Below, piece after piece: positions 21,135 through 30,765 of a DNA stretch of 33,948 nt. Numbering within the stretch: the stretch's first letter is position 1; each line of letters begins with the position of its first letter. The position numbers and the translations under genes were made by a program. The notes beneath the pieces were generated by a model. The model saw nothing but the letters and a program-made list of their open reading frames with translations, was not told the origin of the DNA and did not search any database. This DNA comes from an uncultured Ignavibacteriales bacterium. GTDB taxonomy: Bacteria; Bacteroidota; Ignavibacteria; Ignavibacteriales; Ignavibacteriaceae. The stretch covers positions 1-33,948 of the forward strand of contig CALLZX010000185.1 of assembly GCA_937858935.1 (NCBI GenBank), given 5' to 3'.

Positions 21135-21761
21135 TTGAAGTTAGAAAATATAACGGAGCTTGAACTGTTAGCGCTTTTAAGTGCAGCTTCTGTTTTGCGG
21201 AAACAAAAACATTTTGAATTAATACTTGAAAGATTGTTAACGAATAAGTGTTCGGTTAAAAAGATTTATGAATCTTTGTTGCAAACTTATTTATTTGCAG
21301 GATTTCCATCTGCACTTATCTCATTAAAAAGGCTAAATGAAATTGTTGGAAAAGATAAAGTTTATAAAGGATATGATCTAAAAAAATATTCTAAACGCGG
21401 TGAGAAGAATTGCAGAATAATTTATGGCAATAAATATTATAAACTGATATCAAACGTAAAATCATTTTCTCCAGAAATGGCTGAGTGGTTAATCGTTGAA
21501 GGGTATGGCAAGGTTTTAGGCAGAACAGGGTTGACTTTGAAAGAGAGGGAAATCTGCATAGTATCCATATTATCCGCATTAAAATTTAAGGATCAATTAT
21601 ATTCTCATATCAATGGTTCCGTAAAGGTTAAAGCTGGTTTTGATTTAATTACGAGGACGATAAATAATCTCGAAATTATCTCAGCCAAATCATCTGCAAA
21701 ATATGGATTAAATGTTTTGAGAGAATATCAATTAAAATGGAATCAAAAAAATGTAGTTTGA
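21135..21761 (+). CDS. Carboxymuconolactone decarboxylase (CMD)-like protein without the AhpD CxxC pair
   Basis: A 208-residue protein that starts with TTG, preceded by GAAGGA 7-8 bases upstream; no ATG precedes the conserved region. Two CMD-like helical stretches can be seen: LLQTYLFAGFPSALISLKRLNE (residues ~56-78) and GRTGLTLKEREICIVSIL followed by FKDQLYSHINGSVKVKAG (~128-166). This is the arrangement in CMD-family proteins. The redox CxxC of AhpD is absent: the cysteines (for example in TNKCSVKK and REICIVS) are single. It is therefore probably not a peroxidase-linked AhpD. It lies between two terminator/promoter boundaries and looks monocistronic. The biochemical role is unknown. Confidence 0.65.
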   Translation: MKLENITELELLALLSAASVLRKQKHFELILERLLTNKCSVKKIYESLLQTYLFAGFPSALISLKRLNEIVGKDKVYKGYDLKKYSKRGEKNCRIIYGNKYYKLISNVKSFSPEMAEWLIVEGYGKVLGRTGLTLKEREICIVSILSALKFKDQLYSHINGSVKVKAGFDLITRTINNLEIISAKSSAKYGLNVLREYQLKWNQKNVV

Positions 21762-21926: not shown

Positions 21927-22039
21927 ATTTAGTTTTTTAAGGTTTATTCCGATTCGATGATTTTTAACAAAAATAAGCATTTTTGAATATTTGAGTATCG
22001 ATTTCAAATTACAACCCAAATCTTTGTGAAGGATTGAGT

Positions 22040-25012
22040 ATGCTAAAATTCTTTTCGTTAATTATTCTTATTGCAATTATTCCGCATATCTATTCTCAAA
22101 CGTCATCCCAAAAGTTTGATGAGGCAATGTCTTCATATCATAATCAACAATATGTTCAATCCAACAGATTATTCGAGGAGTTTTTTAATGAATATAAAAT
22201 TGTTGATGAAGTTTATGCAACTGCTAAATACTATTCCGCAGAATCATTATTAAAACTTGGCAGAAAAGATGAAGCCGCAATTGGTTTTGAATATTTGGTT
22301 AAAACCTATAACTGGTCGAATTATCGGGACAAGGCATTATATAATCTTGGTTTAATTTATTATAATTCTGGTAAGTACGAATTATCCCGCAATAAACTGA
22401 AGATGTTATTAAATGACTATCCTGAAAGTGAGTTCTATGGAAATAGTCTTTACTGGGTAGGTGAATCATTCTCTGCAGAAAATAAACCAAAGGAAGCAAT
22501 TCAATTTTTAGAAGAAGCGGTTGCAGATAAAAGAAATAAAAAATATGCTGATTATTCGATCTATACCTTAGCAAACGCATATGAGAAAACCGGTGATTAT
22601 AATAATGCAGTTAAATATTATGATCAGTTACTTACGTATCATAAAAATTCCACCCTTGCTACTTCATCACAGATACGAATAGGGATTTGTTACTTCAAAT
22701 TGAAAGATTATCAATCTTCTATTGTCGAACTTAAAAGTCCAAAACTTATTAATCTTTCTGATGAAATGTATTCTGAAAGTATTTATTTGCTTGCTACTTC
22801 ATATTATCGGGTTGGTGAATACAATGATGCCGAAAAAAGTTATATGGAGGTCTTGCAAAAATTTCCTGATTCTAAATATGCTAGAGATTCCAAATATGGA
22901 TTAGCTTGGACGCACTTTCAACAAAAAAAATATAATGAAGCATTTTCACAATTTGATGAACTATCAATTGAATCAGATTCACTGGGTATTAAATCACAAT
23001 TCTGGAAAGGCGAATGCAAACGCTATTTAGGAAAAAATAATGAAGCTAATGCGATTTATAAAGAATTTCTAGAAAAATATCCAAATGACCCCTTGGTTCA
23101 GGAAGTTCAATATCAACTTGGCGTGGTTTACTTTAATACTAATAACACAGATCTCGCTACAAGATATTTAATTTCTGCGAACTCATCTGAAGATAGTGTT
23201 ATCAGGGGAAAATCATTTGCGATGCTGGGCGAAATTGAATTGAATAAGGGCAATTTTAAAGCTGCTAAGAATTATTTTGAGATGGTTCTTGCAAATAAAG
23301 GCGCTGAAAAATCAGTTCACAGTCGAGCATTATTAGGCCTTGGAATATCCTTATATCATTTGAATGACAATAAAACTGCGCTTAAATATTTAAATGAATT
23401 AGAAAATTCTGATCCTGGATTTGAAACTCAAAAACTCAATTTCTTCCTTGCGGAAAATTATTTTGCATCGAATGATTATAAAGCAGCCCTAAATAATTAT
23501 AATAACTCAACAGGTACAGATCAGGAAATAAATTCTCAAGCGCTTTATGGAAAAGCCTACAGTTTTTTTAATACGGGTGATTATGAGAATGCTGCATATC
23601 AATTTTCTGATTACATAAAAAAGAATCCAAAAAATAAAAGAATAAGTGATGCAAAATTAAGATTAGCCGACAGTTATTTTGGAAGCAAGAATTATACTGC
23701 TGCAAGCAAAGTATATCAGGAATTGTTTAGTGCAGATGCAAAACTAAGCACAGATCCTTATGCCAGATATCAATATGCTCAAGCTCTTTATAAATCAGGC
23801 AAAACCAATGAAGCAATTAGTGAATTCCGATCAATTCAGGAAAAATTTCCAAATTCTGATTATGCTGAAGTTTCACTTTATACAATTGGATGGATACATT
23901 TTCAGAAAAAAGAATACACACAATCTATAGCGCAATACAATACAGTAATTTCAAAATATCCAAATACAAAACTTGAACCAATAATTTATTATTCAATTGG
24001 TGATGCTCAATTCAATATGGAGAAATATGATTCTGCAATTGTTAATTATGAAAAAGTTTTATCTCAATTTCCATCTTCGCAATATGTATTTGATGCGGTA
24101 ACAGGTATTCAATACAGTTATGTTGCAAAAGGGAACCCCGAAAAAGCTGTTTCTTTTCTTGGCGAATTTGTTTCCAAAAATCCAAGTTTAAATTATGCTG
24201 ATCAATTGATGTTTAAAAAAGGGGAAATTTATTACAGCTTGCGTCAGTACGAAAAAGCAAAATCAGAATATAAAAGTTTCACATCTGCTTATCCAAACAG
24301 CAAACTTGTCGCTGATGCTTATTATTGGATTGGTAAGAGTTCGCAAAATCTTGGTCAGGGCGAGGAAGCAATTATTAATTTTGATAAGGTATTTAACAAC
24401 TTTAAAAATTCTGAATTAGCATCAGCATCAGTACTTGAAATGGGATTAATATATCGATCATCAAAAAATTATGATGCTGCTATCAGCACTTATAATCGTG
24501 GAATTAACGAACTTAAAAAATCTGCTAAAATTCCTGAATTCCAATACAATAAAGGAATGACATTATTGGAAAAGGATAGTTTTCAAGAGGCCTATTCTGT
24601 ATTTGAAGAAGTAGTTATGTATTACCCAGGAACTGTGTTTGGTGATAAATCAAAATTTGAATTAGCATTAATAGATATTGCCGGAGGAAGGTACACGACA
24701 GCAGATGAGTATTTAACGTCTCTTTCAGAAAATAGAACAGATGACTTGGGAGCAAAATCACAATATTATCTTGGTCAATCTTTGTATGATCAGGCCAAAT
24801 ATAATGAAGCAATAACTGCGTTGGTTAGAGTTAGAACAGTTTATTCTCGATATGAAGAATGGCTAATGAGATCTTACTTGCTTTTAGGTGACTGTTACGT
24901 AAAACTTAACGATAAACGAAATGCTGCGGAAATGTATAGAGCTGTTCTGACTAAATACAGCGGAACTCCAATTGGAGATGAAGCCCAACAAAAATTGAGG
25001 AAAGTACAATGA
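22040..25012 (+). CDS. Large exported TPR scaffold protein
   Basis: A 990-residue protein from ATG 22040, which has GAAGGA six bases upstream; an in-frame TTG two codons earlier is less likely. Signal peptide MLKFFSLIILIAIIPHIYS is followed by a continuous array of more than twenty tetratricopeptide repeats (for example YNLGLIYYNSGKYELSRNK, LGVVYFNTNNTDLATRYL, YTIGWIHFQKKEYTQSIAQ, YWIGKSSQNLGQGEEAI, YLGQSLYDQAKYNEAI). Many repeats carry the FPxSxYxxDA-type turn (KFPDSKYARDS, KFPNSDYAEVS, QFPSSQYVFDA) seen in CpoB/YbgF, BamD and outer-membrane TPR proteins, so it is probably periplasmic. It overlaps the beta-barrel gene by 4 bases. It is the first gene of the operon ending in exbB, exbD and tonB. 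Confidence 0.9.
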   Translation: MLKFFSLIILIAIIPHIYSQTSSQKFDEAMSSYHNQQYVQSNRLFEEFFNEYKIVDEVYATAKYYSAESLLKLGRKDEAAIGFEYLVKTYNWSNYRDKALYNLGLIYYNSGKYELSRNKLKMLLNDYPESEFYGNSLYWVGESFSAENKPKEAIQFLEEAVADKRNKKYADYSIYTLANAYEKTGDYNNAVKYYDQLLTYHKNSTLATSSQIRIGICYFKLKDYQSSIVELKSPKLINLSDEMYSESIYLLATSYYRVGEYNDAEKSYMEVLQKFPDSKYARDSKYGLAWTHFQQKKYNEAFSQFDELSIESDSLGIKSQFWKGECKRYLGKNNEANAIYKEFLEKYPNDPLVQEVQYQLGVVYFNTNNTDLATRYLISANSSEDSVIRGKSFAMLGEIELNKGNFKAAKNYFEMVLANKGAEKSVHSRALLGLGISLYHLNDNKTALKYLNELENSDPGFETQKLNFFLAENYFASNDYKAALNNYNNSTGTDQEINSQALYGKAYSFFNTGDYENAAYQFSDYIKKNPKNKRISDAKLRLADSYFGSKNYTAASKVYQELFSADAKLSTDPYARYQYAQALYKSGKTNEAISEFRSIQEKFPNSDYAEVSLYTIGWIHFQKKEYTQSIAQYNTVISKYPNTKLEPIIYYSIGDAQFNMEKYDSAIVNYEKVLSQFPSSQYVFDAVTGIQYSYVAKGNPEKAVSFLGEFVSKNPSLNYADQLMFKKGEIYYSLRQYEKAKSEYKSFTSAYPNSKLVADAYYWIGKSSQNLGQGEEAIINFDKVFNNFKNSELASASVLEMGLIYRSSKNYDAAISTYNRGINELKKSAKIPEFQYNKGMTLLEKDSFQEAYSVFEEVVMYYPGTVFGDKSKFELALIDIAGGRYTTADEYLTSLSENRTDDLGAKSQYYLGQSLYDQAKYNEAITALVRVRTVYSRYEEWLMRSYLLLGDCYVKLNDKRNAAEMYRAVLTKYSGTPIGDEAQQKLRKVQ

Positions 25013-26604
25013 GGCTAAAAATATTATTGATTTTATCATTTTCAATTCTTGTTGTTTATGCACAGGATGATAAAACAAAAAATCCAAATGTTGAACTCCC
25101 TGATTTTGTTATTACCGGCAAAAGTCAATTGAACATTAAGAAAGTTGATAAGATAAAACCAGATTTTATATCGTCTGTGAATGAAGATTTTATTAAACCA
25201 ATTTATTCACCTGAAGAACTTGAGATCGGTGATTTTTCTAATCCGCTAAAAAGTGATATGAGTTTCTTAAATGATGTAAGTTTTTATAAAGGCAATATAG
25301 CTGCAGGGATTGGATTGTATACAATCCCGACAGTTAGCGCCAATTATGCTCATCCGTTTACGAATGGAATTGTTGAAGGAATGTTGAGTGGTGATTTTAT
25401 AAGAGCTTATGAAGACAATAGCGATCGATATAATACAAGATTTGGATTTAATTTTACTTATTGGTCAGATATTGATGGGGAAGTATTTCCGGGGACACAG
25501 TTTAATGTTAACGGTAATTATGGAACTACGAGTTTTAAATTTTTTGCTTCAGAAAATCCTGAAGAACGAAGAAGCCTGAACTATGGAAAATTTGAAGTTG
25601 ATGTAAAAAATGATTTTGGTAAAAATTTTCTATTTGGTTTGAACTTAACAAATCATGTAACGAATATTTCACAGGAAGAATTTGATGAAAACAATTTGCG
25701 CCTAAAAGGGGAAGCACTTTATAAATTAGCCGCAGTAAATGTTGGTGCAGCTATCGATTATCGTAACCATTCAATTAAAAATCTTTTAGGTGATAACGCT
25801 GGTAAAGATTATTTTTTGTTTCGGCCAACTGCCGGATTATTTTTTACTAAATTGATAAAGGGATCAATCGGTTGGACATTTTCTCGAGGAGCTGGTGAAA
25901 CATATAACTCACTCTATGCTTCAGTTGCAATCAAGTTAGATAAAAACATTACAATCTTTGGTGAGTATGCACCAACAAGTGAATTTAGTAGTCCGGGAAA
26001 CTTTGTAATTAAAAATAATTACTTTAACGTTGATAGTATTGGAAGTGTTTATTGGGAAAAAACCAGTGCATTAACTGCATCTGTAAAATATGAGTTTGGT
26101 AAATATTTTCAGCTTGATGGAGGACTGAGATATTATAAATCAGACGCTTTCCCATATTTTGGACCATCTTCTGATTCTGGTAAATTTGATTTGCATTATG
26201 CGGATATGAAAAATATAAATCCATACGCAAACTTTTTATTTTATCTTGGACCGTACGGTGAATTTTATAGTACATTAGAGTTATCTGATATCAGAGATAT
26301 AGATGGAAATTTAATCCCTTATTTACCAGTGTTTACTCTAAATGCTGCATATAGTTATAAATTTCAGAATGGATTAACCTCTATTGCAAGATTAGATTAT
26401 CAATCAAACAGATATGCAGATATTAAGAATGAAATTTCAATAGGTGATTATTTTGATTTAGGTTTATCATTCATATATTCATTCCAGCCAAATCTTGATT
26501 TAACGTTGGATATAAATAATATTCTAAATCAGAAAAATTACTTCTGGAATGGATACAAAGAAGTTCCATTAAATATCATCATCGGTGTTAATTATCGCTT
26601 GTAA
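25009..26604 (+). CDS. Outer-membrane beta-barrel protein with TonB-box-like N-terminus
   Basis: A 531-residue exported protein. Signal peptide MRLKILLILSFSILVVYA is followed at residues 29-37 by ELPDFVITG, which resembles a TonB box (for example DTVVVTA). Residues ~90-531 alternate hydrophobic and polar residues in many short amphipathic strands with aromatic girdles (NGNYGTTSFKFF, SVAIKLDKNITIFGEYAP). The end LDLTLDINNILNQKNYFWNGY...GVNYRL resembles the closing strands of TonB-dependent receptors. The length cannot hold a standard ~120-residue plug plus 22-strand barrel, and no plug motifs are seen between the box and the strands. It overlaps the TPR gene by 4 bases. Likely an outer-membrane anchor or porin coupled to the TonB of this operon; substrate unknown. 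Confidence 0.72.
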   Translation: MRLKILLILSFSILVVYAQDDKTKNPNVELPDFVITGKSQLNIKKVDKIKPDFISSVNEDFIKPIYSPEELEIGDFSNPLKSDMSFLNDVSFYKGNIAAGIGLYTIPTVSANYAHPFTNGIVEGMLSGDFIRAYEDNSDRYNTRFGFNFTYWSDIDGEVFPGTQFNVNGNYGTTSFKFFASENPEERRSLNYGKFEVDVKNDFGKNFLFGLNLTNHVTNISQEEFDENNLRLKGEALYKLAAVNVGAAIDYRNHSIKNLLGDNAGKDYFLFRPTAGLFFTKLIKGSIGWTFSRGAGETYNSLYASVAIKLDKNITIFGEYAPTSEFSSPGNFVIKNNYFNVDSIGSVYWEKTSALTASVKYEFGKYFQLDGGLRYYKSDAFPYFGPSSDSGKFDLHYADMKNINPYANFLFYLGPYGEFYSTLELSDIRDIDGNLIPYLPVFTLNAAYSYKFQNGLTSIARLDYQSNRYADIKNEISIGDYFDLGLSFIYSFQPNLDLTLDINNILNQKNYFWNGYKEVPLNIIIGVNYRL

Positions 26605-26621
26605 ATATTTACAAAAGAAAC

Positions 26622-28700
26622 ATGACTAAAGCAGAATTAATAAGAAAAGTTGCAAAAAATGTTGGTGTTCCAGATACGGATGCTAAAATATTTTTTGAAT
26701 TATTCTTAAAAAGAATTTCGGCAATAGTAGAAATTGGTCACTCAATTTTTGTTAAGGATTTTGGATATTTCCATCTCATAAAAGGGAGTATTAAAAAACC
26801 TATTTTTAGTTTTAAGGATAATGACGCTTCCGAAGAGGCAGTAGAACTTGTACTTTTTTCTGAAGACAAAGATCTTCGGAAATCAGATACAAAAGGGTTA
26901 GTATTTAATATCCCTTTCTTTGATGAAGATGATTATCATCCTATTGATTCTGCATTTAGTTTGAGCATTGGTAAACCTTTAATTCCCTTACGGGGAGTTC
27001 CTTTTGATAATATATATATGCCGACTTCAGGATATGAATACAGAAGACTAATCGAATCTAAAGTTGAAAAAATTATTGCATCCTCAGAGATTGCAGAGTC
27101 TGAAGAGAATTTCCCAACTCTTGTGATTGATGCTCGTTCATACAACTCTAACCAGGTTCAATTACAGTGGGATGATAAATCTAGTTCTGGAATAATTGAT
27201 AAATCAACTGAAGATAAACTTGCTTCTGAAGTAAAATCGGAATTGAGTGAATATGAAAAACAGACTAAAGAATTAAAGAATATAGCCTGGGATTTTGGAG
27301 AGGACCTTTCACAGCAAATTGAAGTTGACTCTATTCTTGATATTGCCGATGAACGAATTAATATGGAGACTAATTCTAAAGAGAAATTACTATCAGAAGA
27401 TGTTACTCAAAAAGTTGAAAATGAACCTGAGGAAGTCAGTTTCGTTCAAAAGGAAACGATATCTGAGGAAAAATTTGCAGATGAATCTGAATTTGTTGAA
27501 GAAATTACTCTTGATCAGTCCTCGGAAAAATTGGATGAGTTATTAGAAAGTGAAAATGAGCCAACTGCAGTAATAGAAGAAGTAATAGATCAAAACATAG
27601 TTGAAGAATATGATGACGGTTTAAAGATTCAGAATGAAAATGAGGAAGAAATTATTGATGAATTGAATAATGAAATAATCATTGAGGATAATTTTGAAAA
27701 TCCTATTGGAGAAGGTGAATCTTTAACAGAGGAAAATGTACTGACTGAAACAGAATTGTCTGATGATGAATTCTGGAAAAGTACTTCAAAATATTTTGAA
27801 CCATATAATCCCGGTGCTGATAAAAATAACAAAGATTTTGAAGATGTAAACTCAATTATTGATAGTTCTATTTCAGATGATTCTAAGGAATCTGACCAAA
27901 AAATGGTTGAAGAAATTAGAGAAGTAATAGAAAATGATTTGGTGCTAGATGTTCCTTCTCTCGATGAAAAAGAAAACTTAAATAACAATAATAAAATTCA
28001 AGAAAATAATATGGATGAAAATAAAGAGGAAGAATTAATCGAATTAGAAAAAGTACCGGAACAAAAAGCTGAATATTTCGAACCGACTAAAAAGAAGAAT
28101 CTTGTCTCTTTTATTGTATTTCCATTATTAGTAATTCTATTGTCTTTAGCGCTCTATTGGTATTTAGAGTTTTATAAAAAAAATGAAGTTGTTCCCAAAC
28201 CTAAACAGATAGTATTAAATTCTAATAATGCAAAGATTGTGCAGAGAAATTTTGATATTCCTGTAACATATCCTTATCTGCCTAAAGTTAATGAGACTAC
28301 AATTTCCGAAACTGAATCTACCAGGAATATTGATCAGAATTTAACATCTGAAAAAAATGAAGTTATAAAAACAGAGCCAATTAAAACAGAAGAAAAGAAA
28401 ATTCCAAAACAAAAAGAGACTGAAACTAAGAAAATAGTTAGTCCTGTTATTCCTACAGGGAAGTCACTTAATGTCGGTAACAATATTTACAAATATGGCG
28501 ATTATTATGTTGTTCAGGTTGCTGCATTCAGATCCAGTTCCATCTCAGAAAATGAAGCAGGGAAGTACAGGAACAAAGGATATAATTCTTTTGTAGAAGC
28601 AGCTGAAATTCCTGAACGTGGAACTTGGTATAGAGTAAGGGTTGGAAATTTTTCATCAAAAGAAGAAGCCCAGAATTTTTTAGAAAAAAACATTAGATAA
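26622..28700 (+). CDS. HU-like domain / transmembrane / SPOR domain protein
   Basis: A 692-residue three-part protein. Residues 1 to ~90 start like HU/IHF (MTKAELIRKVAKNVGVPDTDAK, then FVKDFGYFHLIKG), but the DNA-binding arm of canonical HU, with its RNPQTG tip, is missing and acidic sequence stands there. Residues ~195-490 form a very Glu/Asp-rich low-complexity linker. One transmembrane segment is at about 494-516 (LVSFIVFPLLVILLSLALYW). A second linker leads to a C-terminal SPOR domain at ~628-692 (YYVVQVAAFRSS...WYRVRVGNFSSKEEAQNFL). SPOR domains bind denuded septal peptidoglycan. With the HU-like end inside and SPOR outside, the protein could connect cytoplasm to septum. HU-like domains joined to SPOR are known in Bacteroidetes; whether this one binds DNA is open. 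Confidence 0.85.
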   Translation: MTKAELIRKVAKNVGVPDTDAKIFFELFLKRISAIVEIGHSIFVKDFGYFHLIKGSIKKPIFSFKDNDASEEAVELVLFSEDKDLRKSDTKGLVFNIPFFDEDDYHPIDSAFSLSIGKPLIPLRGVPFDNIYMPTSGYEYRRLIESKVEKIIASSEIAESEENFPTLVIDARSYNSNQVQLQWDDKSSSGIIDKSTEDKLASEVKSELSEYEKQTKELKNIAWDFGEDLSQQIEVDSILDIADERINMETNSKEKLLSEDVTQKVENEPEEVSFVQKETISEEKFADESEFVEEITLDQSSEKLDELLESENEPTAVIEEVIDQNIVEEYDDGLKIQNENEEEIIDELNNEIIIEDNFENPIGEGESLTEENVLTETELSDDEFWKSTSKYFEPYNPGADKNNKDFEDVNSIIDSSISDDSKESDQKMVEEIREVIENDLVLDVPSLDEKENLNNNNKIQENNMDENKEEELIELEKVPEQKAEYFEPTKKKNLVSFIVFPLLVILLSLALYWYLEFYKKNEVVPKPKQIVLNSNNAKIVQRNFDIPVTYPYLPKVNETTISETESTRNIDQNLTSEKNEVIKTEPIKTEEKKIPKQKETETKKIVSPVIPTGKSLNVGNNIYKYGDYYVVQVAAFRSSSISENEAGKYRNKGYNSFVEAAEIPERGTWYRVRVGNFSSKEEAQNFLEKNIR

Positions 28701-28721
28701 TTAATTTATTAAAGGATAGAT

Positions 28722-29378
28722 ATGAACTTATTAGATATTTTCTTAAAAGGTGGATTTATCATGTGGCCGATACTTCTCAGTTCAATAATCGGACTTGCAG
28801 TATCAATCGACCGATTTATAATGTTAAGAAAAGCAAAAATTAACGTTCCGGCCTTTATGGTTAGAATAAGAGGATTTATAAAGAAAAAAGATATTTCAGG
28901 TGCAATAAGTTATTGCATGCAGGAAAAATCGCCTGTTGCAAATATTGTTCGTAAAGGATTAAAGAAATACAAATACGGACATGATAGAGTTAAAGATGCA
29001 ATAGAAAATGCCGGCAGCCAGGAAATAAGCAAATTAGAAAAAGGATTATCAGTACTAGCGTCCGTTGCAGGTATTGCTCCATTGTTAGGATTTCTTGGAA
29101 CAGTTACAGGAATGATTCAGGCTTTTATGACAATTCAAGATTTAGCTGGTGCAGCAAATCCCAGTGATCTTGCCGGTGGAATTTGGGAAGCACTAATTAC
29201 AACTGCATTTGGTCTGATAATTGGCATCCCGGCGTTTGCATTATATAATTACTTTCTAAGTGCAGTTAAAAAATTAGTTGGTGAGATGGAAACCGTCGCT
29301 AACGATGTTATTGATGTAATTCAGGATGGTGGAAAAGATGAAGCGGAAATTGATGACGAAATTGAAATGGAATTATAG
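28722..29378 (+). CDS. exbB: ExbB/TolQ/MotA family proton channel
   Basis: A 218-residue inner-membrane protein with three transmembrane segments: residues ~12-33 (FIMWPILLSSIIGLAVSI), a second in VLASVAGIAPLLGFLGTVTGM and a third in LITTAFGLIIGIPAFALYNYF. AGIAPLLGFLGTVTGM and AAxPxDLAGGIWEALITTAFGL are classic ExbB/TolQ signatures, with the Thr residues of TM2/TM3 that line the proton path. Acidic EAEIDDEIEMEL forms the end. The gene is followed 9 bases later by exbD and is 22 bases after the SPOR gene. It forms the pentameric stator that converts proton motive force into force on the TonB partner. Confidence 0.95.
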   Translation: MNLLDIFLKGGFIMWPILLSSIIGLAVSIDRFIMLRKAKINVPAFMVRIRGFIKKKDISGAISYCMQEKSPVANIVRKGLKKYKYGHDRVKDAIENAGSQEISKLEKGLSVLASVAGIAPLLGFLGTVTGMIQAFMTIQDLAGAANPSDLAGGIWEALITTAFGLIIGIPAFALYNYFLSAVKKLVGEMETVANDVIDVIQDGGKDEAEIDDEIEMEL

Positions 29379-29386
29379 GTAACCAA

Positions 29387-29791
29387 ATGAAATTTAAACT
29401 ATCTAAAGAACCACTAAGCATATTTGCTTATTCCTCTTTAACAGATATTGTGATGCTGCTGCTTATATTCTTTTTACTCACTTCGCAATTTGTTATTCAA
29501 ACAGGAGTTAAAGTAAAACTTCCCGGTTCAAAGATGAATGAAAAATCTGAACCATCTAGAATGGTAGTTACCTTAACACCAATGGGTGGAGTTTTTGCGG
29601 GAGAAGAAGAAATTAGCATAGATCAACTTCCTGTTAAGCTTGGTGAGATGAAGGCACAAACAAGTGAGGATAATCTTATAATTCGTGCTGATAAAACTGT
29701 TGCAATAGATCTGGTAATTAAAGTTATAGATGCAGCTAAAATTTCAAACATTGAGAAATTTACAATAGAAACTGAAAAAGAAAAGCTTTAA
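29387..29791 (+). CDS. exbD: ExbD/TolR family stator protein
   Basis: A 134-residue single-pass inner-membrane protein. The transmembrane helix lies at ~18-37 (TDIVMLLLIFFLLTSQFVIQ), and its Asp19 corresponds to the conserved proton-carrying Asp of ExbD/TolR. The periplasmic part has the family pattern VKVKLPGSKMNEK, RMVVTLTPMGGVFAGEEEI and NLIIRADKTVAIDLVIKVIDAAK. Spacing of 9 bases after exbB and 1 base before tonB shows one unit. With ExbB it should energise the TonB protein of this operon. Confidence 0.95.
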   Translation: MKFKLSKEPLSIFAYSSLTDIVMLLLIFFLLTSQFVIQTGVKVKLPGSKMNEKSEPSRMVVTLTPMGGVFAGEEEISIDQLPVKLGEMKAQTSEDNLIIRADKTVAIDLVIKVIDAAKISNIEKFTIETEKEKL

Positions 29792-29792
29792 T

Positions 29793-30494
29793 ATGTATTT
29801 GTCAAATCAAAACGTTAGCCGTATCTCATACTCAGCTTCAATAGTATTTCACCTGATTTTACTTTTGCTGTTCCTTATAATCAATTTCAGTTTTGATTAC
29901 CCTTCTAAAGAGTATGTTGAATTATCATTTGGAGTTTCAGGCGATGCAGGTTCTTCAGGTTCGGAAGGAACAGCGTTTGATGAAGTATTAGAGAAAGCCG
30001 AGTTGCAGGAAAAAGATATCACAAAAGACAAAAATCTTGAAGTAAAAGAAGTTGAGCTTCCAAAAGCAAAAAATACAGATGTAAGTGATGTTAATCCTGC
30101 TCAAAAAGATAAGGAAGTAAAAAAAGAAACTGTTAAACAAACTGAGCAGCGTGAAAGTGAAAATTCTACAGGTGATAAAAAAGGAAATCTAAATCAAGGC
30201 TCAGGCGATTTTGGTTTTCATTTTGAAGGCGGGGGATTAGGAACCAGAAAGATTTATAGCTATGTAATTCCTGCTTATCCCGAAGGAGTTAACAAGGAAA
30301 TTGATATAAGATTAAAGTTTACAATTAAACCTGACGGAACAGTTGGTTCAATATTTTTGCTTTCTAAAGCAGATACAAGATTAGAGAATGCTGCAATAAA
30401 TTCGCTTTGGCAGTGGAGATTTGAACCTTTAAATTCTAATCAGGTTCAAGGTGATCAAACTGCGGTTATTGTTTTTCCTTATCGACTGCAATAG
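29793..30494 (+). CDS. tonB: TonB family energy transducer
   Basis: A 233-residue TonB-type protein. N-terminal anchor at ~12-32 (SYSASIVFHLILLLLFLIINF) carries the His that is typical of TonB/TolA anchors (His20). A charged periplasmic linker follows (Lys/Glu-rich, residues 60-150; not the Pro-rich type of E. coli). The C-terminal TonB domain runs from about 155 (GLGTRKIYSYVIPAYPEG) to the end, with FTIKPDGTVGSIFLLSKAD and SLWQWRFEPL. It is the last gene of the operon and overlaps the convergent minus-strand gene by 29 bases. It should transmit force to an outer-membrane partner, plausibly the barrel encoded in the same operon. Confidence 0.92.
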   Translation: MYLSNQNVSRISYSASIVFHLILLLLFLIINFSFDYPSKEYVELSFGVSGDAGSSGSEGTAFDEVLEKAELQEKDITKDKNLEVKEVELPKAKNTDVSDVNPAQKDKEVKKETVKQTEQRESENSTGDKKGNLNQGSGDFGFHFEGGGLGTRKIYSYVIPAYPEGVNKEIDIRLKFTIKPDGTVGSIFLLSKADTRLENAAINSLWQWRFEPLNSNQVQGDQTAVIVFPYRLQ

Positions 30495-30765
30495 GTTCTT
30501 CATGGTAATAGAATTTATAAAAGAAAAATTCTATTATAGTTAATAATGATAATGAGAATGCATCCCGATCAAACTGCATACCCAAACCTTTTGGTTCCAT
30601 TACAACTTTAGCAACTATTCCAGTGATTGTCCAGCCTACAGCAAATAAAATAGCGATAAGTGAAATGTTTAGGAACCCTGCGGATAGATTCTCATCCTGC
30701 CATTTTTTTGTAAAGATTACTAATCCAAAAATAAGATGAACAAAAAAGATAAATGCTGTAATCAT
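30466..30765 (-). CDS. Small three-helix membrane protein of unknown function
   Basis: A 99-residue protein with three predicted hydrophobic segments: residues ~2-18 (ITAFIFFVHLIFGLVIF), ~30-52 (LNISLIAILFAVGWTITGIVAKV) and ~70-84 (SLSLLTIIEFFFYKFYY). I do not recognise the family. Its ATG overlaps the stop of the preceding minus-strand gene by 4 bases (ATGA), so it is translated in the same operon as that membrane protein. Its 3' end overlaps the last 29 bases of tonB in convergent orientation. The charged C-terminus KFYYHEEPIAVDKEKQ probably lies in the cytoplasm. Confidence 0.7.
   Translation of the reverse strand: MITAFIFFVHLIFGLVIFTKKWQDENLSAGFLNISLIAILFAVGWTITGIVAKVVMEPKGLGMQFDRDAFSLSLLTIIEFFFYKFYYHEEPIAVDKEKQ
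30506..30536. repeat. Perfect 11-bp inverted repeat just after tonB
   Basis: TAATAGAATTT (30506-30516) and AAATTCTATTA (30526-30536) are exact inverse complements around a 9-base loop. It begins 12 bases after the tonB stop and lies inside the 3' coding part of the convergent gene. There is no clear T tract for the plus strand. Confidence 0.6.

Follow-up and report, generated by a model that had tools for sequence, protein, structure and literature searches.

A plug-less barrel operon of Ignavibacteriales as a candidate second Ton-type trans-envelope machine

Ton-type motors usually serve nutrient uptake; what, then, could such a motor do when the outer-membrane barrel encoded beside it has no plug? 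The question is raised by a six-gene operon in the DNA of an uncultured Ignavibacteriales bacterium (genome G000; contig CALLZX010000185.1, a stretch of 33,948 nucleotides, hereafter the window). The six genes, all on the + strand (22034/22040-30494) and with junctions of -4 to 21 bp in the list of open reading frames (ORFs), encode a large tetratricopeptide repeat (TPR) protein, an outer-membrane barrel, an HU-like/single-transmembrane/SPOR protein, ExbB, ExbD and a divergent TonB. In the favoured reading, to which a probability of about 0.45 is assigned, the operon specifies a second, dedicated Ton-type trans-envelope machine whose probable job is envelope anchoring or constriction, division or envelope anchoring being the best guess as to its function. 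This reading is built on computed observations, namely the gene set and its conservation, the model of a plug-less transporter-type barrel, the TonB-box-like motif, the presence of other Ton systems and the absence of TolB.

Conservation was followed in neighbourhoods from 127 further genomes and the window, annotated with profiles built in this analysis. The loci fall into the organism's own order (n = 48, window included), other orders of its class (n = 26) and other classes (n = 54). Genomes and loci bear G and L identifiers, respectively; the family names given to Bacteroidia loci (Flavobacteriaceae-like) and the label 'Chlorobiales-type' are inferences by the analyst, the former from locus content.

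The barrel, its motif and the divergent TonB

Pfam backs the assignment of every gene of the operon (TPR, SPOR, HU, ExbB, ExbD, TonB_C) but the barrel (25009-26604, + strand, 531 aa), which scores 23.9 bits with TonB_dep_Rec, under the cut-off of 27, and has no Pfam match to the Plug domain PF07715. An AlphaFold model of the barrel protein computed with 44 relatives (predicted local distance difference test, pLDDT, 84.9) has ~22 strands in residues 95-531 (25291-26601) and no plug; residues 18-89 are disordered (pLDDT <50) and too few to form one. The best solved matches found by Foldseek and VIA-align are the barrels of TonB-dependent transporters, with a root-mean-square deviation of 3-4 Å over ~390-420 residues of BtuB and FhuA. 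Most of these alignments begin past the plugs of the partners (BtuB 135-594, FhuA 157-723; VIA-align Z ~23), indicating that the transporter barrel is present and the plug absent. As modelled, the protein is thus a barrel of the TonB-dependent transporter type without a plug. The preliminary description of the locus had named an ordinary substrate receptor as the outcome that would speak against a trans-envelope machine; the barrel is no ordinary receptor, since it lacks a plug and bears a conserved motif resembling a TonB box.

This motif, VELPDFVITG (residues 28-37; 25090-25119), is near-invariant and lies shortly after the signal peptide, in the disordered N-terminus. Its ten residues hold 8 of the 23 invariant or near-invariant positions of the barrel (hypergeometric p 1.4e-10). 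Plug-bearing transporters of the same order carry boxes such as KLSDVVITATK, LNDVVITATK and LSDVVITATK immediately before the plug, and VELPDFVITG aligns with boxes of the KLSDVVITATK type. Motif and TonB are both present in 68 loci of the class, and both are missing from L077 (G037) and L225 (G204), whose genomes also have no match to this TonB; the association reaches a Fisher value of 0.013 over lineages that are not independent. Exceptions are L196 and L221, with the motif and no TonB in the locus, and L222, with TonB and no motif; in L191, where TonB is present, the predicted barrel start lies so far upstream that the stretch scanned would not include the motif. To judge from these sequences, a trans-envelope link via the TonB box is likely.

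The divergent TonB (29793-30494, + strand, 233 aa) has a C-terminal domain at residues 162-232 (30276-30488) that scores 28.6 bits with Pfam TonB_C (cut-off 24.6) and 26.5 bits with TIGR01352, just below its cut-off of 27.1. In its transmembrane segment (SxxxH), S16 and H20, the residues known in TonB to contact ExbBD, are invariant in 26 aligned relatives. The motor genes directly precede it: exbB (28722-29378, + strand), for an ExbB/TolQ-type proton-channel subunit of 218 aa (Pfam 120.8 bits, cut-off 22.9), and exbD (29387-29791, + strand), for an ExbD/TolR-type subunit of 134 aa (85.1 bits, cut-off 25.4). Each of the 80 genomes tested (80/80) has at least eight Plug receptors together with TonB_C matches, and the top TonB_C matches lie at loci other than the operon. 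The operon TonB is therefore an additional TonB, and the candidate that it is the cell's general Ton system is ruled out by the higher-scoring TonB_C proteins elsewhere. A conserved VELPKxKNT in the TonB linker of Ignavibacteriales (residues ~82-92; window 30036-30068) resembles the VELPDFVITG of the barrel and might be a decoy in cis. In G043, a second TonB of this family is encoded away from the operon (G043:C12:230495-231223); the operonic TonB of that genome has no transmembrane histidine, and ExbD is undetected there.

Operon partners and conservation in Bacteroidota

The first gene of the operon opens with TTG at 22034 and ends at 25012 (+ strand), giving a TPR protein of 992 aa; an in-frame ATG at 22040, the coordinate given in the preliminary description, gives 990 aa and is the likelier start. 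A signal peptide is followed by an unbroken solenoid of ~27 TPRs, modelled by AlphaFold as ~54 serial helices with no further domain (mean pLDDT 92). The protein belongs to a single full-length family, of which 45 sequences align end to end with 38% mean column identity. Foldseek searches with the model were uninformative, the matches being unspecific TPR proteins and further alpha-solenoids, most of them eukaryotic; two studies published in 2025 on the BAM complex of Bacteroidota name other subunits and leave TPR proteins unmentioned. In the window, 4 bp are shared by the TPR and barrel genes. Of 118 adjoining pairs, 59 have exactly this overlap and 21 another one, which fits coupled translation and a complex of the two products.

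Gaps of 17, 21, 8 and 1 bp separate the remaining genes. The third (26622-28700, + strand, 692 aa) encodes an HU-like domain at residues 1-58 (26622-26795; Pfam Bac_DNA_binding 26.3 bits, cut-off 22.4), a transmembrane segment read from the sequence at residues ~498-519 (28113-28178) and a SPOR domain at residues 627-689 (28500-28688; 56.5 bits, cut-off 21). With its HU-like N-terminus and SPOR C-terminus it resembles the HU-CCDC81 proteins with SPOR (PF18174/PF18175), and its operonic relatives in Bacteroidia match both models (HU-CCDC81_bac_1/2), whereas the window protein is above cut-off for the general Bac_DNA_binding model only. At L070, HU and SPOR are encoded by two separate genes that overlap, as if a fusion had been split. 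No study of the operon was found in the literature on HU-SPOR proteins and on the operon itself.

The six same-direction genes with tiny gaps or overlaps, as first described, are borne out by the ORF list. An assembly artefact is ruled out because the block is also present in genomes assembled as one contig, G003, G006 and G024 among them, and a chance cluster is ruled out because the block is conserved across loci. In the own order, TPR is found in 48 loci, HU and SPOR in 48, TonB in 47, ExbB in 38 and ExbD in 37. The expectation that related genomes keep these genes together is borne out: within the own order, TPR-barrel-HU/SPOR-TonB stands in 47/48 loci and ExbB-ExbD in 37. ExbB, ExbD or both are nonetheless absent from the operon in 11/48 of these loci, and HU is undetected in the 26 loci of other orders (TPR 25, SPOR 21, TonB 22, ExbB 8, HU 0). 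In other classes the counts are TPR 47, HU or SPOR 31, ExbB 26 and TonB 15, and distant loci again have the complete gene set, the HU domain of some being of the CCDC81 type. The barrel occurs in 57/59 close relatives, as a single locus wherever intact, and weaker matches are found in 311/395 Bacteroidota genomes, many of the weak ones partial. Collectively, the architecture and conservation of the operon are well supported.

The surroundings of the operon are less constant, and the downstream genes differ between loci. An ORF on the minus strand (30466-30765) is convergent with the operon in the window and overlaps the end of tonB; just upstream, 21135-21761 encodes a 208-aa protein with a sub-threshold match to carboxymuconolactone decarboxylase. 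In many relatives (L045, L048, L051, L054-L057, L062, L068 and L071), the gene directly 5' of the TPR gene, with gaps of -8 to 7 bp, encodes a membrane protein (~270 or ~490 aa) that by eye resembles DUF92/phytol-kinase proteins; the window has no such gene there. The TPR gene is missing at L254, L259 and L263, where by eye LolA-like genes lie 5' of the barrel, with FtsK-like genes too in L254 and L259. In three Bacteroidia loci (L209, L220 and L223), a FolC-like protein with two Mur ligase domains is encoded after the TonB position.

Relation to known envelope systems

Tol-Pal, the system that elsewhere secures the outer membrane or pulls it inward as cells grow and divide, was proposed at the outset as the nearest analogy. 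The likeness to TolQRA-TolB-Pal-CpoB lies in a TolQ/R-type motor, an inner-membrane transducer, an operonic periplasmic TPR protein and a proposed role in division or the envelope; the difference is that the window operon has neither TolB nor Pal; in their place are a SPOR/HU protein and a transporter-type barrel bearing the TonB-box-like motif. TolB_N (PF04052) has no match in G000 and weak matches in 4 of 62 genomes, with a positive E. coli control, so the analogy is apt in a genome from which, by this test, Tol-Pal is absent. OmpA-like matches to the Pal equivalog TIGR02802 occur in 48 of 50 genomes, none above the 125-bit cut-off, while E. coli was matched in the control. Membership of Tol-Pal is ruled out by these TolB_N and Pal results. 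The top equivalog matches of ExbB and ExbD are tolQ (109.7 bits, cut-off 221) and tolR (48 bits, cut-off 127), neither reaching its cut-off. The TPR protein scores 334 bits with TIGR02795 (CpoB/YbgF; cut-off 90), a score spread over 12 repeated stretches of a 992-aa, all-TPR protein, and 108 of 383 with the PRK10803 CpoB model.

Bacteroidetes have no identifiable tol-pal loci, and PorE, a CpoB-TolB-Pal fusion, has been proposed as a candidate substitute (PMC12204202). PorE and the window operon share a proposed tethering of outer membrane to peptidoglycan in the same phylum; unlike the operon, PorE is a single lipoprotein. PorE-type matches in the own order are mostly weak (best in G000 2.5e-15), with none over cut-off in 50 genomes, and the window TPR protein scores 16.6 bits with the T9SS_PorE equivalog (cut-off 600).

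Ton systems with TonB-dependent transporters share with the operon ExbB/ExbD/TonB, a transporter-type barrel and a TonB-box-like motif. They differ in that the window barrel lacks a plug and its TonB is divergent and apart from the higher-scoring TonBs of the genome. Another likeness is to Agl-Glt/Nfs of Myxococcus, a moving envelope machine with a TolQR-type motor driven by proton motive force, a TonB-like transducer, several TPR proteins and outer-membrane proteins (PMC3169522). The earlier view that no characterised system has this set should therefore be softened, although Agl-Glt comprises many more genes and its predicted outer-membrane proteins are far smaller (GltA 256 aa, GltH 209 aa) (PMC3169522). 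No SPOR or HU part is noted in it, and the family-level match is limited to the shared TPRs, the window TPR protein scoring 34 of 450 with the GltC equivalog.

Competing explanations and biological meaning

In the favoured reading, ExbB and ExbD would drive the divergent TonB, whose C-terminal domain would bind the TonB-box peptide of the barrel N-terminus. Since the barrel has a transporter fold without a plug, TonB would act on the barrel itself, pulling or holding it rather than unfolding a plug. The TPR protein, probably translated together with the barrel, would form a periplasmic scaffold upon it. The HU/SPOR protein would lie in the inner membrane, with the HU-like part facing the cytoplasm and the SPOR part bound to septal peptidoglycan; it would position the assembly at the division site, where it may anchor or draw in the outer membrane in growth and division.

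Several points weigh against this. A search for localisation or mutant data on the operon proteins found none. A profile built from 20 real TonB boxes usually picks the motif within the order, at a median score of 4.3, below the control 95th percentile of 5.8, and fails to recognise most Bacteroidia barrels; as the scores lie within the upper control range, the identity of the box rests on position, conservation and resemblance together. Flavobacteriaceae-like loci retain the TPR-barrel pair alone, the large family f26 yields partial barrel matches only, and five genomes (G020, G029, G219, G303 and G336) lack both a barrel match and this TonB, which shows that some lineages can do without the system. 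Finally, eleven loci of a Chlorobiales-type clade keep TPR, barrel, SPOR and TonB and have lost both operonic ExbBD and the transmembrane histidine; force is thus not the universal element.

The main rival, unlikely but the strongest of those weighed here, is an export or assembly channel in which the TPR-barrel pair forms a secretion portal for polysaccharide, lipid or protein, with TonB and ExbBD as optional accessories. It draws on the constancy of the pair, whose genes adjoin in 120/128 loci phylum-wide and which stands alone in the Flavobacteriaceae-like loci, on the wide pore that a plug-less barrel of ~22 strands would make, and on the fact that synthase-dependent polysaccharide exporters (AlgK-AlgE, BcsC, PelB) characteristically pair TPRs with a barrel. 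Unlike those exporters, the operon has a ~22-strand transporter fold, a TonB box and a SPOR/HU protein, and in the loci examined no synthase or other substrate gene constantly adjoins it, the downstream neighbours being variable. A plain exporter would leave the TonB box, TonB, SPOR and HU unexplained.

Less probable again is a passive tether, a trans-envelope strut fixing outer membrane, peptidoglycan and inner membrane to one another, with ExbBD force as a lineage-specific addition. A solenoid of 27 repeats could span much of the periplasm. Besides the Chlorobiales-type clade, operonic ExbBD and the TonB histidine are missing from L201 and also appear to be missing from L228 and L230, of another class; barrel and TonB persist in these loci, and the motif persists in class-level loci lacking the motor contact. 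The persistence of the operon in a whole clade without this contact argues against energised uptake as a universal function and for structural linkage; these sequences suggest a passive tether in that clade and indicate that the ExbBD motor is not obligatory. However, most own-order loci retain ExbBD beside TonB, with S16 and H20 invariant, and L216 and L223 have ExbBD and no histidine. Co-loss of ExbBD and the histidine gives a Fisher value of 9e-5 within the class, but on the tree independent pairs are not significant (3 agree, 0 oppose, 7 ties; median p 0.25). That the barrel is a nutrient receptor with its own TonB system is very improbable: the transporter-type barrel and TonB-box-like motif would suit it, as would the Riemerella ExbB-ExbD-TonB set, only ~10% identical to its TonB2 and redundantly aiding hemin uptake (PMC5109031, PMC4446302; no orthology to the window operon is claimed), but the missing plug means no ligand-gated transport of the known kind, one locus per genome is kept in lineages whose diets differ greatly, neither a SusD-like nor a transport gene constantly adjoins the operon in the loci examined, and energised import is hard to explain in a clade that lost motor contact.

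A broader form of the favoured reading, possible though doubtful, makes the operon a phylum-wide replacement for Tol-Pal. The Ton motor would grip the barrel via the box, the SPOR/HU protein would link peptidoglycan and nucleoid, and the outer membrane would be drawn in at the septum, a motor-less strut serving in Chlorobiales-type lineages. The means by which Bacteroidota, with no identifiable Tol-Pal, keep their outer membrane in place and constrict it are still in question (PMC12204202), and the operon is a phylum-wide, single-locus candidate for the Tol-Pal role, alongside PorE. Tractable relatives are in culture and offer scope for direct tests of the idea; for one, Flavobacterium johnsoniae, a depletion system is available (PMC12611786). 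A barrel that has kept a TonB-box-like peptide without a plug would put the Ton system to a new use.

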